Virus record (IMG/VR): IMGVR_UViG_3300034418_009056
Span: 1 to 32,919 of that record
Length of the DNA stretch: 32,919 nt
Strand: one strand, 5' to 3'
Source: a virus
A program made the translations under genes and the position numbers. The number at the start of each line of letters is the position of its first letter. Positions within the stretch are counted from its first letter, which is position 1. The notes beneath the pieces were generated by a model. The model was not told the origin of the DNA. It did not search any database and saw only the letters and a program-made list of their open reading frames with translations. Positions 8,113 to 30,780 of this stretch are shown one piece after another.

Positions 8113-8979
8113 ATGGGATTAGCTAGACATTATAAAGTGTCAGAAATTAAGCAAAAGTTATTGCGCCCAGCACAAACTTCAGTATATTCTGTCGAAATTT
8201 TAACAAATCAAAAGGTTAATAGTTTTGTAGGGGTAACTTTATCAAAGGAACAGGAGATTATTAATTTATCTTGTTGCGAAGCAAGTCTTCCAGGATCTAG
8301 TTTAGCAACTCACGAATCTAATAATGATTATCATGGAACTAGTGAAAAAATGGCATATCGTAGAATATATGACGATACAATTGATTTAACTTTTTATATT
8401 GATTATAGATATAATACTTTAAAATATTTTTTGGCCTGGATGAGTTTTATTGTTGGTGAAGGAAATTACTTTACTCAAAATGACTATATTGATCCAACAA
8501 CATTTTATAGAATGACTTATCCTTTCTCATATAAGACAAAAATTAAACTTTTAAAATTTGAAAAGGACATTTCAACATCTTCACCAAACTATAGAATAGG
8601 ATATGATTTTATAGATGCATTTCCTATCAATATCGCATCAACTCCAATTTCCTACGATCAAAGCGATTTATTAAAAGTAACTGTTTCCTTTTCATATACT
8701 AGATATGTGATTAGAAGTAAGTTTAGTCCTTATTCGACATCAGCAGAATCAGCAATAGATATTCCTTTTAATCCTCAAGTACAAGCATTTCAAAATAGTA
8801 ATAACTTTGATTTTGGAATTGAACCATTGAATGGATCGACCTACACATTACCAGATGGTGGAGGATTTGATTTTAATCCAAATGTATCACTTTTAGATAT
8901 AGCTCCTCAAAGACAGCAAAATATTAATGGATCAATTGGGGATTTTGGTCCATTCGGAGGAACATCAAATATTGGTTGA
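8113..8979 (+). CDS. 54: baseplate tail tube initiator gp54-like
   Basis: gp54 forms the ring from which tail tube polymerises in T4. This 288-residue protein (T4 320) has the tube-type pattern: YSVEILTNQKVN, CCEASLPGSSLATHE, LTFYIDYRYNTLKYFLAWM, a later FPINIASTPISYDQSDLLKV segment and SFSYTRYVIR. The ending with a recognition strand before a Gly/Asn-rich tail is typical of tube and tube-initiator proteins. A diverged tube protein is the alternative. It heads the rightward hub operon, and gp26 follows after a GATAAATA box. Confidence 0.7.
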   Translation: MGLARHYKVSEIKQKLLRPAQTSVYSVEILTNQKVNSFVGVTLSKEQEIINLSCCEASLPGSSLATHESNNDYHGTSEKMAYRRIYDDTIDLTFYIDYRYNTLKYFLAWMSFIVGEGNYFTQNDYIDPTTFYRMTYPFSYKTKIKLLKFEKDISTSSPNYRIGYDFIDAFPINIASTPISYDQSDLLKVTVSFSYTRYVIRSKFSPYSTSAESAIDIPFNPQVQAFQNSNNFDFGIEPLNGSTYTLPDGGGFDFNPNVSLLDIAPQRQQNINGSIGDFGPFGGTSNIG

Positions 8980-9015: not shown

Positions 9016-9738
9016 ATGCCATTACCAAAGATTTCGACACCAACATATGAGTTGGAATTGCCATCAACTGGACAAAACATTAAGTATAGACCATTTTTAG
9101 TTAGGGAAGAAAAACTATTAGTTCTTGCATTAGAGAGTGAAGACACAAAGGAAATCACAACTGCAATTAAAACGGTTATTAAAAACTGCATTCAAACTAG
9201 GGGAGTTAAAGTAGAAACGCTTCCTACATTTGATATTGAATATCTCTTTCTTAACATTCGTGGAAAATCAGTAGGAGAAGTGATTGATGTCAATCTAATT
9301 TGTCCTGATGATAATGATACAACCGTAAAAAAAGAAATTGCGATTGATGAAATTCAAATTAAACGAAATGATGAGCATACAAATCAAATCAAAATTGATG
9401 ATAATTTGATGATGGAAATGAAGTATCCATCACTTGAACAATTTATCAAGAGTAATTTTGATTTTTCTGCAGATGCAAATAATATGGATCAATCATTTGA
9501 TTTGATTGTTTCTTGTATTGATAAAATTTACAATTCTGAGGAAGTTTGGGCTTCTTCCGATGTAACCAAGAAAGAACTGGTTGATTTCTTAGAACAGATG
9601 AACTCGACCCAATTTAAGCAAATTGAGAAGTTCTTTGAAACTATGCCAAAACTACATTATTCAACTATTATTAAAAATCCAAATACTAAAGTTGAAAGTG
9701 AGGTTGTTCTTGAAGGACTTTCTAGTTTTTTCGGATAG
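9016..9738 (+). CDS. 26: baseplate hub protein gp26, tail-chaperone-like
   Basis: T4 gp26 is needed for hub assembly. This 240-residue protein begins MPLPKISTPTYELELPSTG and has IKYRPFLVREEKLLVLALES (23-42), then FDIEYLFLNIRGKSVGE, a form I recognise from cyanophage gp26 (T4_baseplate family). The C-terminus is acidic and helical (QFKQIEKFFETMPKLHY) and ends in SFFG. The last codons contain the slippery sequence T TTT TTC described separately. By position, immediately before a short ORF and a tape-measure-like gene, it occupies the place of the tail assembly chaperones of lambda (G) and P2 (E). Confidence 0.85.
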   Translation: MPLPKISTPTYELELPSTGQNIKYRPFLVREEKLLVLALESEDTKEITTAIKTVIKNCIQTRGVKVETLPTFDIEYLFLNIRGKSVGEVIDVNLICPDDNDTTVKKEIAIDEIQIKRNDEHTNQIKIDDNLMMEMKYPSLEQFIKSNFDFSADANNMDQSFDLIVSCIDKIYNSEEVWASSDVTKKELVDFLEQMNSTQFKQIEKFFETMPKLHYSTIIKNPNTKVESEVVLEGLSSFFG

Positions 9739-9756
9739 CCATGGTCCATATGGACC
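9726..9756 (+). promoter_or_regulatory. candidate programmed -1 frameshift element
   Basis: The slippery heptamer T TTT TTC (9726-9732) is in the correct X XXY YYZ phase of gp26 (codons AGT TTT TTC GGA TAG). After a 10-base spacer the palindrome GGTCCATATGGACC (9743-9756) can form a 5-bp GGTCC/GGACC hairpin with an ATAT loop. Slipping back one base continues as CGG ATA GCC ATG, with no stop, into the ORF at 9741. The product would be about 299 residues. The layout is the family standard, but frameshifting itself is not demonstrated. Confidence 0.7.
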
Positions 9757-9914
9757 TTGCTAACTATTATAAGTTGAATTTTGCCTTGATTCAGTATCAT
9801 AAATATTCATTGACTGAGATTGAAAATATGATGCCTTGGGAACGTGATGTATATGTTACATTATTGGAACAGCACTTGGAAGAAGAAAGGCAAAAACAAC
9901 AACAAAAGAGTTAG
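9741..9914 (+). CDS. 57-codon ORF, probable chaperone extension of gp26
   Basis: The ORF encodes MVHMDLANYYKLNFALIQYH, then KYSLTEIENMMPWERDVYVT and a glutamate/glutamine-rich tail. The MPWERDVY-type segment resembles the short C-terminal partners of phage tail assembly chaperones, in which a small helical domain with a P[FW]ER[ED] motif binds the tape measure. It has no good Shine-Dalgarno. It is in the -1 frame of gp26 and reachable by slippage, so it may be made mainly as a gp26 fusion. It ends 6 bases before the tape-measure-like gene. A gp51 label is possible but T4 gp51 is much longer. Confidence 0.7.
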   Translation: MVHMDLANYYKLNFALIQYHKYSLTEIENMMPWERDVYVTLLEQHLEEERQKQQQKS

Positions 9915-9920
9915 TAATTC

Positions 9921-12887
9921 ATGGCAGCCGAGGATCCAACCCAAACTAAAACCCAAATCATAGATCCAGAAATTGCCAAAATTCTTGGGTTGGAGGATAA
10001 CTTTGACTTAGAATATGATGAATATATGACTTTAATGAAGGAAGCAATCGCAAAAGGTGCTTTCGATGAAAAGTTAAAGTTATCCGAAGAAGATTTGGCA
10101 AAAATTGCCAATGAAAGAAAAAGAATAAGAGATTTAAAGGAATCTACATTTACTACTGCACCAAAGAAAACAGTAAATGTAGATAGTTTCTTTGGAAGAA
10201 GAAATAGAGAACAAAATAAACCAACGGACTCATCAAAACTTTTAGCAGGTTCTCCAGAAGCAATAAAAGCAAGTCGGGTAGAACCAATTGATGATATAGA
10301 AGATCAAAAAGATAATACAGTTGATAAATTATACAAATTTTTAAACGGAGATCTTTTAAGTATAGTTAAAGAGATTCGTAGTCTTACAGAAGATATTGTA
10401 AATATTTTTAAAAAGCAATCACAGGCAAACGAAAAATCACGAGAAAAAAATAGAATTGAAAAAAATAAACAAAAAAAGGCAGGAAAAGAGAATAAATTAG
10501 AATCAAAAAAACAATCTTCAAAAGGATCAAAATTACTCGATAAAGTTATAAAACCATTTACGAATATTTTTGATACTATAAAGAACTTTATTATGATGGT
10601 TCTTTTAGGGTCTGCAGTAAATTGGTTATTTTCTGTTATCAAAAATCCAAAAATTCTTTTGCAGCCAATACAAGATTTGTTTGATGGTATTGTTGGAGTC
10701 TTTAATAGTATTCTACAATTTATTGATAATAAACTTATTCAACCAGTAAGAGGATTTATTGATTCTATAAATTCTGCCATAAGTGGATTTATTGATATGA
10801 TAAATGGAGCACTCAAGTTCATTCCTGGTGCACCCCAATTGCCAAATGATCCAGATAAGGGAGTTATTCCAAACATTCCAAAAATACCCGAACTTCAAGC
10901 ACCGGACATTGTTGGAAATAGAGAACCAGAACCAGCAGAACCACAACAAAAACAACAATCTGCTCCTGGAGTTAATGTAAAGTTTAATGGTGGATCTATT
11001 ACTAAACTTAGTCCCGTTCTTACTAAGAATACGGGCGGATCTATTACTAAACTTAGTCCCGTTCTTACTAATAATACGGGTGGATCTATTACTAAACTTA
11101 GTCCCGTTCTTACTAAGAATATGGGTGGGTCCACAACTCCACCCCAAAGAAAAACTCCAACTATTGGAAATGATACTGTTTCAATTGAAGGTGGTGTAGT
11201 TAATAATAATACAGTTAATACAAAAATATCTGGTTTAGGACCAGATCAATATTTAACTGCACTTTCTCTCGGAGAATATGTTTTGAAACCCGGAGCAGTT
11301 AATTGGTTGGGTGGAGAAGAATATTTGGATAAAGTTAATTATATGTTTGGTGGAAGATCTGAAAGAAGAACAGCAAGTATTGGTGATATTAACATTGAGG
11401 CAATGAATACTGGTGGTTCTGTTGGAGGTCGTAGAAATGATGCTCACAAAGGCGGAGGTTCTTCAACAACTACTCCCACTCAAAATGCACCAAAAGATGA
11501 AACTAAACAGTCTGAATCGAAAGGTTCAATAGAATATAAATTAAAGAAAAGTGATCCTCCCAATAATGCACCAAAAGTTGAAACTAAAGAGGGCAGACAG
11601 TTAATTCCAGATGAGTATGTGAAAAATACAAAACATACAACACACATAAAGGTTGGTGATAAAGAAAAGAAAAATTATGTCATAAGATATGAAAAAACTG
11701 GAGATACTTATATTGTAAAACAAATTAATAAGTTGGTTCAAAGTTCTTTCTTAGGATTGAATGATAAATTTACTGGAGTGAATCCCCAGAGTCCAGAAGG
11801 AAAATTGGTTACAAACTCTATAGAATTAAAAAACTGGTTTAATGATTATGATAATATGAGTCTTCTAGATTCTAAAAAAATAAAAATAGAATCTCATAAA
11901 GATGCAGATCTTTGGTTCTGGTATTCTAGGTCTTATAAAGCAAATTATGATTATTGGAAAAAATTAAATGTAACTGAAAAAGAAGCACGAATTTTCGCGG
12001 CAAAAGCAGCAGCAGAGTTTGCTATGCCCGGAAAAAATAAGGATGATGAGGGAGTTACACTTATGCCAGGCGCAGATAATCCTGCTGCGGCACCAGAGCA
12101 TCTTAGAACAGTTGCCGTAGATTCTGATAACACCTCATCTTCAAGTTCTTCAAGTAGTTCTACACAAGCAAAATATGATCCAAACTTTAAAATAGAAGGT
12201 GGAAAAGTAAAACAGTTTTATCTTGATGCATTAGCAGATGGTTCTTACACTGGAAAAAGGAATATAAGTTCCTCTTCAGCTTCCAACTTTATTTCCAATA
12301 CTAATACTACTAATAATACTACTAATAATACTAATAATAATACTAATAATATTAAACAGTTAGTACGAGGAATGGGAGGTAGTGGTTCAAGTATATTGGA
12401 TCCTACAAAGACTGCTGCATCAATGCCACATGTATTTGAGGCTGCAAAAGAAGCAAGAGCAAAGGCAAGAGCAGAAGGTCTTTCTCCAGAAGAGGTTGAA
12501 AAAAGAGTTATAGTTGCTTCTGAAAATGCAAAAAGAAATGGACCATCTTTTAAGTCATTAACTCCAACATCTTCTCAGTCGAATCAACCAAGAAAAACAT
12601 TATTACAGACAACATTCCAAAATAGAAGAGAAAATAGAGGTTCTTCATATACTCCACCAACTCAACCACAAATTACACCAACAAAAACTCCAACAATTCC
12701 AAGTATACCACAATCTAGATCATCCACAACAATAATACCAATGCCTGGTGGAGAAAATCAATCCAAAACAATGAAAACTGGAATGACAAAAACTGGAACA
12801 ACTTCAATACCAACTATCAATTCATTTGATGATAATCAACAAACTATGGTAACAGTTGCCGCAATTTATAATATCTGGGGAATGTAA
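9921..12887 (+). CDS. tape-measure-like tail protein 1
   Basis: A 988-residue protein. A charged helical N-terminal region (about 1-200, very Lys/Glu-rich at 165-205) leads into a hydrophobic stretch (about 215-310) that begins IKNFIMMVLLGSAVNWLF. Three tandem copies of a 15-residue repeat follow, then LSLGEYVLKPGAVNWLGGEE near residue 450, a form of the LTPGEFVL..AV motif common in tape measure proteins. The C-terminal half is Ser/Asn/Thr-rich with low-complexity linkers and ends IIPMPGG...VTVAAIYNI. Position straight after the chaperone-like pair supports a tape measure role (T4 gp29 position). It is longer than gp29 (590). The next gene is a paralogue, so which one sets tail length is unclear. 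Confidence 0.65.
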   Translation: MAAEDPTQTKTQIIDPEIAKILGLEDNFDLEYDEYMTLMKEAIAKGAFDEKLKLSEEDLAKIANERKRIRDLKESTFTTAPKKTVNVDSFFGRRNREQNKPTDSSKLLAGSPEAIKASRVEPIDDIEDQKDNTVDKLYKFLNGDLLSIVKEIRSLTEDIVNIFKKQSQANEKSREKNRIEKNKQKKAGKENKLESKKQSSKGSKLLDKVIKPFTNIFDTIKNFIMMVLLGSAVNWLFSVIKNPKILLQPIQDLFDGIVGVFNSILQFIDNKLIQPVRGFIDSINSAISGFIDMINGALKFIPGAPQLPNDPDKGVIPNIPKIPELQAPDIVGNREPEPAEPQQKQQSAPGVNVKFNGGSITKLSPVLTKNTGGSITKLSPVLTNNTGGSITKLSPVLTKNMGGSTTPPQRKTPTIGNDTVSIEGGVVNNNTVNTKISGLGPDQYLTALSLGEYVLKPGAVNWLGGEEYLDKVNYMFGGRSERRTASIGDINIEAMNTGGSVGGRRNDAHKGGGSSTTTPTQNAPKDETKQSESKGSIEYKLKKSDPPNNAPKVETKEGRQLIPDEYVKNTKHTTHIKVGDKEKKNYVIRYEKTGDTYIVKQINKLVQSSFLGLNDKFTGVNPQSPEGKLVTNSIELKNWFNDYDNMSLLDSKKIKIESHKDADLWFWYSRSYKANYDYWKKLNVTEKEARIFAAKAAAEFAMPGKNKDDEGVTLMPGADNPAAAPEHLRTVAVDSDNTSSSSSSSSSTQAKYDPNFKIEGGKVKQFYLDALADGSYTGKRNISSSSASNFISNTNTTNNTTNNTNNNTNNIKQLVRGMGGSGSSILDPTKTAASMPHVFEAAKEARAKARAEGLSPEEVEKRVIVASENAKRNGPSFKSLTPTSSQSNQPRKTLLQTTFQNRRENRGSSYTPPTQPQITPTKTPTIPSIPQSRSSTTIIPMPGGENQSKTMKTGMTKTGTTSIPTINSFDDNQQTMVTVAAIYNIWGM
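10989..11123 (+). repeat. three tandem 45-base coding repeats
   Basis: Three units of 45 bases encode GGSITKLSPVLTKNT, GGSITKLSPVLTNNT and GGSITKLSPVLTKNM. Only a few bases differ between copies, so the expansion is recent and in frame. It lies in the linker of tape-measure-like protein 1. There are no spacers, so this is not a CRISPR array. Confidence 0.9.
12164..12253 (+). repeat. 90-base direct repeat, copy 1
   Basis: Identical at 89 of 90 positions to 16422-16511 in the next gene; the single T/C difference at 12242 is silent (Gly). It encodes a 29-residue segment beginning AKYDPNFKIEGGKVK and ending LDALADGSYTG, and follows a Ser-rich linker. Confidence 0.92.
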
Positions 12888-15900: not shown

Positions 15901-16728
15901 AGAGTATTAACTTCTGGTATGGGAATGAGAGATTTTGCATTATCTCCAGGAATGCATATGGGAGTTGATATTAATGGAACAACCGGAGAACCATTACAAG
16001 CATTTAGTGATGGAGTTGTTCAGGATACTGGTTATGAAGCAGGTGGATATGGTAATTGGGTAAGTTGGATTGATGATAATGGGATTGGTCATTTTTATGC
16101 TCATATGAATAAACCAGCATTTGTTAGAAAAGGTCAAAGAATTAAAAAAGGAACAATTCTTGGAGAACTTGGTAGTACTGGTAGATCTGATGGTCCTCAC
16201 TTACATTGGGAAACAGCAACAAATCCAAGTGATACTGGAAGATCAAAATCAGCAGTTCTTTCTAGATTTAATCCATTATCAAAATATGGTATTGATGCTC
16301 CTTTTGGGGGAACTATTCAACCAGATCCAAGTATAGCATCATCTTCTTCAAGTTCTTCAAGTTCCCCAACTCCTTCAAGTTCTTCAAGTTCCCCAACTCC
16401 TTTGAGCTCTTCATCTAAAGAACAAGCAAAATATGATCCAAACTTTAAAATAGAAGGTGGAAAAGTAAAACAGTTTTATCTTGATGCATTAGCAGATGGC
16501 TCTTACACTGGTCCAAGTGTTAATTCAATAAAAGAAGAAGCATCATATGAAAAGGAAGGTGCTAGTAATATTATAATGATACCAATGCAAGGTTCATCAT
16601 CACCCAATACAGTTAATGGTAGGATTAATAAATCGGGAGGAAGTTTGATTGGTAGTGTAAATAGTAATATAGATATTTACAATAAATCCTTAAAGCAAGT
16701 TATTGTTTCAGCATTTTATAAAATATAA
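12901..16728 (+). CDS. tape-measure-like tail protein 2 with three cell-wall hydrolase domains
   Basis: A 1275-residue protein after an AAGGAGG ribosome site. The N-terminal half is Lys/Gly-rich, then hydrophobic: IKNVLLGSLVNYLW near 200 (shared with protein 1) and glycine-rich helices to about 440. Three hydrolase-like domains follow. A SleB-like segment (about 622-776) has LAAVASREDGDPQGRADVAQ with E643. An amidase_2-like domain (about 811-955) has IFLHWSAGG (H830), THGEWER (H927) and RWDLD (D948). An M23 endopeptidase (about 996-1110) has MHMGVD (H1019, D1023), HFYAHM (H1064, H1068) and GPHLHWE (H1100, H1102). All canonical M23 residues are present. The C-terminus resembles that of protein 1. 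It probably opens peptidoglycan during infection. The SleB call is the least certain. Confidence 0.75.
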   Translation: MALPAALLGAGRIIASQGLKQGLKTASKNFAKEKVKDIAKKKAQSFIKKKDDGKGGGLVKRDSGDGGEGGSGGFFGGGFGGGGGSGGFLVKTKKIDIKKLSLIDKEETSSNQKKFDGSELIDELTKIKNNLITIKKISSSNLSSFLSEQRNRRREQEFSKRKNKEDNLEATKEKTKKPKSKKGKKAPGFLDLISGFIKNVLLGSLVNYLWKYIPQILEMFEEIANGLTNVWQRVRLSIISASVLFRRQIRFVFNLGKKILKFAAPLIKKSGSIVKKVLGFAGKRIFNLIKGATGLALKLAKKLVPGAVKAATPIVKGTAKVVGKVVGGAVKAGGSAIKAAGNAVNIVKRFKFVSNLFKKIPFIGALIGIGIDLAMGERVDKAIAGAAGASLGTAVGAAIGTGIIPIPVVGTWVGGAVGGAIGDWAGKKIYSNLIGLQDVADKEAPVDPVEQKYSAGRIGQRSTSVVSRSSSTSSPGTISTINSKVSSATESNAKKNIFTDEKSLETYKEIRSKLGTSSFVGELMQISLDVGLGEKINKTRTDNAAKQIGYSVGDALSESKVFGFNKRLVEPISEDLTEWAKKAIFNDLTRVSLNNDYKRIKSESYKENPNKGTSTNTPQQQSKINISGGTSDFWTLAAVASREDGDPQGRADVAQSIYNRAASGAYGTKSISGLITRTWQYEPTWRYPNGASKGNGVPNPEWLQIKDLSSASAATGTSEDFVKGAADAILNPKYQKDAIDFIGGRTDFTNYPKSERKGQILRKKGDNYFGWDWNYSGNTIGAIPNFGATSTSITKASSSSSGGGGKSPDSNRPIVAGSPIDAKNRKIFLHWSAGGYNTPFSAYHSIVLGSGEKVQNTPYDKDKSGHTAGGNTNSVGLAVAAAAGATENNLKTPPTTKQLDVMTSEAANLAKSWGWTPAKVDSNVKTHGEWERYAVPAGILSPPVQRWDLDKLSQSDRFGSGGPKLRDMIKSKMSAMGGGKGNGGPVKKHKASEFIMGGGKRVLTSGMGMRDFALSPGMHMGVDINGTTGEPLQAFSDGVVQDTGYEAGGYGNWVSWIDDNGIGHFYAHMNKPAFVRKGQRIKKGTILGELGSTGRSDGPHLHWETATNPSDTGRSKSAVLSRFNPLSKYGIDAPFGGTIQPDPSIASSSSSSSSSPTPSSSSSSPTPLSSSSKEQAKYDPNFKIEGGKVKQFYLDALADGSYTGPSVNSIKEEASYEKEGASNIIMIPMQGSSSPNTVNGRINKSGGSLIGSVNSNIDIYNKSLKQVIVSAFYKI
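16347..16400 (+). repeat. two tandem 27-base repeats in Ser-Pro linker
   Basis: Two identical 27-base units, each TTCAAGTTCTTC followed by AAGTTCCCCAACTCC. They extend the Ser/Pro linker just before the shared 90-base repeat in tape-measure-like protein 2. Confidence 0.9.
16422..16511 (+). repeat. 90-base direct repeat, copy 2
   Basis: Partner of 12164-12253, offset by 4258 bases, with one silent difference. It also follows a Ser-rich linker and sits about 100 residues before the C-terminus of its protein. Confidence 0.92.
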
Positions 16729-30229: not shown

Positions 30230-30304
30230 GGGACTGTCGCCTATTGGTTAAGGCCCACTGCTTATAACGGTGTGAAGAGGGTTCAATTCCCTCCAGTCCT
30301 ACCA
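30230..30304 (+). tRNA. tRNA-Ile (UAU)
   Basis: The acceptor stem GGGACTG pairs with CAGTCCT (one G-U pair), with discriminator A and an encoded CCA. The D arm is GCCT/AGGC, the anticodon stem CACTG/CGGTG with loop CTTATAA, and the T arm GAGGG/CCCTC with loop TTCAATT. The anticodon TAT reads AUA directly. Most bacteria read AUA with a CAU tRNA modified to lysidine, so this phage tRNA is a bypass. Confidence 0.85.
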
Positions 30305-30308
30305 AAAT

Positions 30309-30392
30309 GCGAGTATGGCGGAATCGGTAGACGCACCAGACTTAAAATCTGTTGGGAGCAATCCCGTGGGAGTTCAAGTCTCCCTACTCGCA
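30309..30392 (+). tRNA. tRNA-Leu (UAA)
   Basis: A class II tRNA: acceptor GCGAGTA with TACTCGC, discriminator A, a long variable arm with GGGA/TCCC, and T arm GGGAG/CTCCC. The anticodon loop CTTAAAA gives UAA, reading UUA, a favoured codon in this AT-rich genome. CCA is not encoded. It starts 4 bases after tRNA-Ile, so the two are cotranscribed. Confidence 0.92.
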
Positions 30393-30436
30393 CTAGGGTT
30401 TTAATGCCCTAAATATTCAAAAGTAGAGAACTACTT

Positions 30437-30708: not shown

Positions 30709-30780
30709 GCCCTTGTAGCTCAGTGGTAGAGCAACGGTTTTGTAAACCGTTGGTCGCTGGTTCAAATCCAGTCGGGGGCT
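30709..30780 (+). tRNA. tRNA-Thr (UGU)
   Basis: The acceptor GCCCTTG pairs with CGGGGGC (two G-U pairs) and the discriminator is T. The D arm is GCTC/GAGC, the anticodon arm ACGGT/ACCGT with loop TTTGTAA (anticodon UGU, reading ACA), and the T arm GCTGG/CCAGT with loop TTCAAAT. CCA is not encoded. It begins 2 bases after the preceding stop codon. Confidence 0.92.

Follow-up and report, generated by a model that had tools for sequence, protein, structure and literature searches.

We are highly confident that gp26 in the viral DNA analysed here (IMG/VR record IMGVR_UViG_3300034418_009056, positions 1 to 32,919; this whole stretch of 32,919 nucleotides is hereafter 'the window') is the tail assembly chaperone (TAC-N) of a T4-related cyanophage, and that most ribosomes translating it stop at its end and a minority slip into the -1 frame at 9726–9732, yielding a 299-residue TAC-NC fusion with the gp51 frame. 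An ocean cyanobacterial virus thus very probably makes a longer second helper protein by a -1 slip, in an arrangement kept across a wide T4-related set. The slip site, the open frame, the selection acting on that frame and the homologies can all be read in the sequence. The locus is made up of the following parts.

8113–8979, plus strand: tail tube protein gene, directly upstream of gp26 (phrog_45, E 3e-31)
9016–9738, plus strand: gp26, 240 codons (PF12322 T4_baseplate, E 9.9e-74; phrog_150, E 2.6e-78); its 0-frame product is the putative short chaperone (TAC-N)
9723–9725, plus strand: -1-frame TAG that abuts the heptamer on its 5' side, bounding the slip position
9726–9732, plus strand: slippery heptamer T_TTT_TTC, conserved in phase as T_TTT_TTN in 180/185 places
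9733–9914, plus strand: -1-frame extension, the gp51 C-domain (phrog_634), adding 60 residues to give 299 in total
9736–9738, plus strand: 0-frame stop TAG of gp26, one codon past the heptamer
9741–9914, plus strand: 57-codon ORF as listed from the sequence alone, with its ATG 2 bases past the gp26 stop and lacking a Shine-Dalgarno sequence
9743–9756, plus strand: palindrome GGTCCATATGGACC, an RNA hairpin with a 5-bp stem and a 4-base loop starting 10 bases after the heptamer; possible stimulator
9921–12887, plus strand: downstream 988-codon ORF; weak tape-measure assignment (phrog_4200, E 2.8e-4)

The possibility of a frameshift had been raised in an earlier note on this DNA, and all the coordinates that we checked from it are accurate. 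The 240-codon ORF 9016–9738 ends in AGT TTT TTC GGA TAG (9724–9738), and T_TTT_TTC at 9726–9732 lies in the exact X_XXY_YYZ slippery phase with respect to the gp26 frame, as had been claimed. Read from the heptamer, the -1 frame (TTT TTT CGG ATA GCC ATG) is indeed free of stops through the 57-codon ORF, up to 9914, and the computed -1 fusion is 299 residues long, in agreement with the products of 240 and roughly 299 residues proposed earlier. Since a TAG occupies 9723–9725 in the -1 frame, a slip is only possible between 9726 and the gp26 stop, i.e. on the heptamer or one codon after it. The ORF left unnamed in the earlier note is gp51, 'baseplate hub assembly catalyst', as identified by profile search (phrog_634, E 5.8e-28); a second match of this ORF is to the C-terminal end of phrog_150 (E 2.1e-6). 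The idea that gp26 and the next ORF form a chaperone frameshift pair is supported, with this correction of the partner's identity.

We infer the slipping itself, its rate and the binding of partners as follows. Most ribosomes would end at the TAG at 9736–9738 and release the 240-residue protein, and a minority would move one base back on T_TTT_TTC and enter the gp51 frame to give the 299-residue TAC-NC fusion. If the two products work as lambda gpG/gpGT do, it would be the 240-residue protein that coats the tape measure protein and the fusion, made in small amounts, that brings in tail tube or hub subunits. For the window phage the predicted diagnostic peptides are VESEVVLEGLSSFFR and IAMVHMDLANYYK for the fusion, VESEVVLEGLSSFFG for the short form and MVHMDLANYYK for a free gp51.

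To follow the slip site across relatives we assembled 185 places: the window itself, 80 contigs from a search with the window gp26 (the best 80 of 591), 79 of the 80 contigs from a search with P-HM2 gp26 (L148, which ends inside gp26, was dropped), five further viral contigs from three more searches (several of the five duplicate named phages), and the records of 20 named phages. A search with Ackermannviridae gp26 as query returned no loci. The 94-base junction regions of the 185 places comprise 152 distinct sequences. Relatives without the heptamer, or with stops in the -1 path, had been named as grounds for abandoning the frameshift; an in-phase T_TTT_TTN is present near the gp26 3' end in 180/185 places, and in all 185 the -1 frame is free of stops from the slip site, across the gp26 stop and for 120 bases or more beyond it, or, in five loci, as far as the contig runs. 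Counted by distinct junction (n=152), the heptamer is TTTTTTC in 122, TTTTTTA in 23, TTTTTTT in two and absent in five. In one case it stands nine codons before the stop, and in two it abuts the stop. The slip site is kept in CC2 (Emmerichvirinae) and ValKK3 (Schizotequatrovirus). The five exceptions (L089, L092, L093, L096 and L097) are Ackermannviridae or Vibrio phages; they carry T-runs of four or five and an open -1 frame that looks gp51-like by eye, and probably use a shorter slip motif akin to the GTTTTT of PMC12846349.

The occurrence of the in-phase heptamer at the gp26 3' end exceeds chance: in the gene interior T_TTT_TTN is found in phase at 17 of 37,458 codon positions (162 distinct genes), as against 180/185 at the 3' end. 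The first slippery Phe codon is TTT in all 157 sequences with Phe there, and of the 18 two-fold columns conserved over the 162 sequences no other has an invariant codon, the overall Phe usage in the gp26 set being 1385 TTT vs 717 TTC; within single clades there are other invariant codons too, namely one Glu column in the window clade (clade A) and one Phe column in clade C2. In 22 places of clade C2 the second residue has changed, FF becoming FL, and the heptamer is kept as T_TTT_TTA. It could be that a polymerase, rather than the ribosome, slips on the T-run and so makes the fusion. A run of six T residues, rarely seven, is conserved, as such transcriptional slippage would have it, but polymerase slippage normally requires longer runs, the phase of the heptamer is exact relative to the reading frame, and the run ends as TTTTTTC or TTTTTTA in 145 of the 152 distinct junctions (TTTTTTT in two, absent in five), all of which makes this explanation barely credible.

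Could gp51 instead be a separate gene, translated by termination and reinitiation at the ATG beside the gp26 stop, with the open -1 frame and the T-run being incidental? Public gene tables partly point this way. Of the 20 named phage records that we opened, 19 have gene tables, and none of the 19 has a joined gene or frameshift annotated at gp26/gp51; 14 list gp51 as a separate gene, in three cases (Syn19, P-HM2 and Milchi) cut short, with the annotated start well downstream, and five (ACP17, CC2, D504, Atu_ph04 and STML-13-1) do not list it, the D504 table having a small ORF in another frame. The window ATG, 2 bases past the gp26 stop, is in keeping with reinitiation, as are two counts: in 48 of the 59 distinct window-clade loci the fourth codon of the -1 frame, counted from the heptamer (index 3), is an ATG, and in 25 of the 41 distinct clade C1 loci a GAGG motif stands before the first in-frame ATG. 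Against it are counts over the 147 distinct junctions in which the heptamer is where it normally lies and the -1 ORF is complete: in 80 of them no in-frame ATG appears until codon index 8 or beyond (counting from 0), and 38 lack ATG, GTG and TTG alike throughout the first 18 codons of the -1 frame. Selection is purifying over codons 3–17 of the -1 frame, a stretch that in many loci lies ahead of any start codon, with a pN/pS of 0.14 in the window clade (54 sequences), 0.16 in C1 (38) and 0.21 in C2 (30), compared with 1.2 to 1.9 in the other two frames over the same codons. Neither the conserved heptamer nor the existence of T4 gp51 as a hard-wired fusion (see below) is explained by a separate gene, and we consider this account highly improbable.

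In the window clade the ATG lies near the gp26 stop, so reinitiation could also make some free gp51. Such coupled reinitiation would add to the frameshift and is not an exclusive alternative to it: the clade keeps the heptamer together with the nearby ATG, as expected if both routes are used, but the earlier claim that the downstream ORF lacks a Shine-Dalgarno sequence holds well beyond the window (57 of the 59 distinct window-clade loci showed no such motif ahead of their first in-frame ATG) and two loci of the clade, L024 and L067, are without an early ATG. We regard the production of both forms as rather unlikely. In clade C1 (L103–L147) the 3' arm of a hairpin located just after the gp26 stop reads GAGGG and stands at Shine-Dalgarno distance from an in-frame ATG; this hairpin may mask an internal start site from which a short gp51 would be made.

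Comparison with T4 places the frameshifted pair beside an arrangement in which no slip is needed. Genes 26 and 51 of T4 stand apart and are transcribed divergently. We compared both with a profile built from 173 conceptual fusions, in a two-sequence search to which the E-values apply: the alignment with T4 gp26 ends at the slip site, and that with T4 gp51 runs across the N-domain, the junction and the C-domain. PHROGs agrees, with T4 gp51 spanning positions 13–280 of the 282 of phrog_150 (E 2.6e-84). T4 gp26 is thus a homologue of the short form of the window phage and T4 gp51 of the whole fusion; T4 encodes as two separate genes what a single slip site would join in the window. A tblastn search with T4 gp51 matched 1339 phage records, in 1334 of which one place covers at least 80% of the query, which fits the fused form being common among T4's relatives. 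We infer that the slip came first and the T4 arrangement later. If gp26 is indeed frameshifted into gp51, the cyanophage equivalent of the T4 hub 'assembly catalyst' gp51 would be the C-terminal part of the gp26 frameshift product, and not a separate catalyst-like protein. The locus allows one to trace, inside one phage group, the passage from a frameshifted gene pair to two ordinary genes, and supplies natural variants of slip codon and hairpin.

The assignment of gp26 as a chaperone was also approached through structure prediction. AlphaFold2 with a 37-row alignment gave a gp26 model with a pLDDT of 86.7. Residues 1–96 of the model match 3fgx (Z 7.9, rmsd 4.1, 86 aligned), 2ob9, the HK97 tail assembly chaperone (Z 7.8, rmsd 3.8, 84 aligned), and 3klu (Z 7.4, rmsd 4.0, 86 aligned), all three of which are named as tail assembly chaperones in PMC9603447; these Z scores come from a second look at 826 chains proposed by Foldseek and are below 8, a range in which chance matches occur. 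The next rows have Z scores of 5.3 and 3.2. Foldseek alone gave nothing for the model at E 0.001 or better, with 2ob9 ranking third (E 0.85), and no credible sequence relative of gp26 was found in the PDB (best E 0.22). Because the Z scores stay below 8 and the Foldseek E-value for 2ob9 is 0.85, we grade the match as moderate support for a predicted TAC-N fold in the gp26 N-domain. The gp51 C-domain is predicted as four helices (pLDDT 82.2, pTM 0.54); it matches the C-terminal part of T4 gp51, and a Pfam search gave nothing credible. The fourth structural match to the gp26 model, 5ir0 (Z 5.3), is an uncharacterised protein encoded by a PICI-like element of Vibrio cholerae, and is possibly a satellite protein with a chaperone-like fold.

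Conservation strongly supports gp26/gp51 as a chaperone pair of the P2 E/E' kind. The slip of P2 on a T-run heptamer, to which the earlier note had pointed, is an annotated -1 frameshift at T_TTT_TTG; as in the window, the heptamer lies close to the 3' end of the first gene. At 91 codons, P2 E is far shorter than the window gp26, and its C-domain is not detectably homologous to that of gp51: hmmsearch and hhalign detected no homology between the gp51 C-domain and P2 E'. The lambda gpG/gpGT heptamer differs from that of the window. In P2 the tape measure gene is next after E/E'. In the window, the ORF 9921–12887 is next; its link to tape measure proteins, proposed in the earlier note, is weak (phrog_4200, E 2.8e-4), no similarity was seen to the gene downstream in Cr30 (tape measure, a fragment), and a comparison with the downstream gene in P-SSM2 gave no support for this identity. 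Inside this 988-codon ORF, at about 10980–11140, are tandem GGSITKLSPVLTKN-like units, and an 87-base stretch coding for AKYDPNFKIEGGKVKQFYLDALADGSYTG is present in both large ORFs 3' of gp51 (12168–12254 and 16426–16512; 85 of 87 bases identical).

The earlier note knew of no description of such a frameshift for T4-like hub operons, but one probably exists. By its title, a 2022 paper by Vladimirov, Gautam and Davidson (Virology 566:9-15) is about T4-like tail assembly chaperone genes; PMC12846349 refers to it on poly-T -1 signals in the TAC-N genes of T4-like phages, and PMC10885494 on some T4-like phages that have a short gene and a separate long fusion gene. A 2016 review (PMC5009743) described the G-T frameshift as conserved in long-tailed phages 'except T4'. 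According to PMC12846349, the chaperone loci of Vandenendeviridae and Andersonviridae have a conserved GTTTTT, an open -1 frame and a second ORF annotated as a separate gene; the motif is shorter, like that of our five exceptions, and the phage families are other ones. Among the matches listed in the open literature (titles, abstract openings and passages), we found no description of a gp26/gp51 frameshift in cyanophages. Given the citations of the 2022 paper for poly-T slip signals, the chaperone frameshift is not new in kind, and what we describe is a very well supported further case; what may be new is that it is shown across cyanophages, that gp51 can lack a start, and that the hairpins are clade-specific.

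The earlier note had also proposed to compare gp26 3' ends for conservation of heptamer, phase and hairpin. Heptamer and phase are conserved, and the hairpin is clade-specific and not found everywhere. In the window, the 14-base palindrome was confirmed at 9743–9756, 10 bases downstream of the heptamer, and the 45 bases 3' of the heptamer, with the stem GGUCC/GGACC, fold at -12.7 kcal/mol vs -6.7 for synonymous shuffles (z -2.3). Excluding loci too short downstream of the gp26 stop, the mean folding z is -1.8 in the window clade (50 distinct sequences, five of which fold no better than synonymous shuffles), -3.2 in C1 (38 sequences; 6-bp stem 5 bases after the heptamer) and, in C2, -2.7 for TTTTTTA (21) and +0.23 for TTTTTTC (11); for the named records and their close copies it is -1.2 (22 distinct sequences). 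A universal hairpin was rejected on the strength of the five window-clade sequences, the C2 loci with TTTTTTC and the z of only -1.2 in the named records and their close copies. The stems lie at differing distances and are not one conserved element.

Covariation support for the hairpins is, on these alignments, mixed. In the window clade it is modest, with nine cells changed on both sides (a number reached by 20 of 500 shuffles) and a score reached in 43/500, and the nearly invariant C1 stem showed none. In C2, 13 such cells were counted (0/500 shuffles) and the score was reached in 8/500; pairs changed on both sides were reached in 338/500 and further pair types in 465/500, so that two of the five covariation measures are within the shuffles, and the stem slid by -2 scores higher. 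A strong hairpin is present in 12 of the 22 TTTTTTA loci of C2 vs none of the 12 TTTTTTC loci (Fisher p 0.0018). This pattern would fit a hairpin that offsets a weak slip codon, but the TTTTTTC loci form one group on the tree and hence represent a single evolutionary event, not independent support for a trade-off. We put forward only tentatively, as a doubtful scenario, that the clades came to equip this one slip site with stimulatory hairpins of different build (in the window clade a 5-bp stem 10 bases off, in the two others 6- to 8-bp stems 5 bases off), that hairpin strength would be balanced against the slip codon (UUC or UUA) so as to tune the ratio of short to long chaperone in each lineage, and that the T4 lineage abolished the slip by gene duplication. 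As a separate observation, the window has three tRNA genes: Ile (anticodon tat, 30230–30304), Leu (taa, 30309–30393) and Thr (tgt, 30709–30780). Part of clade C2 has UUA as its slippery codon, which the Leu tRNA would read.
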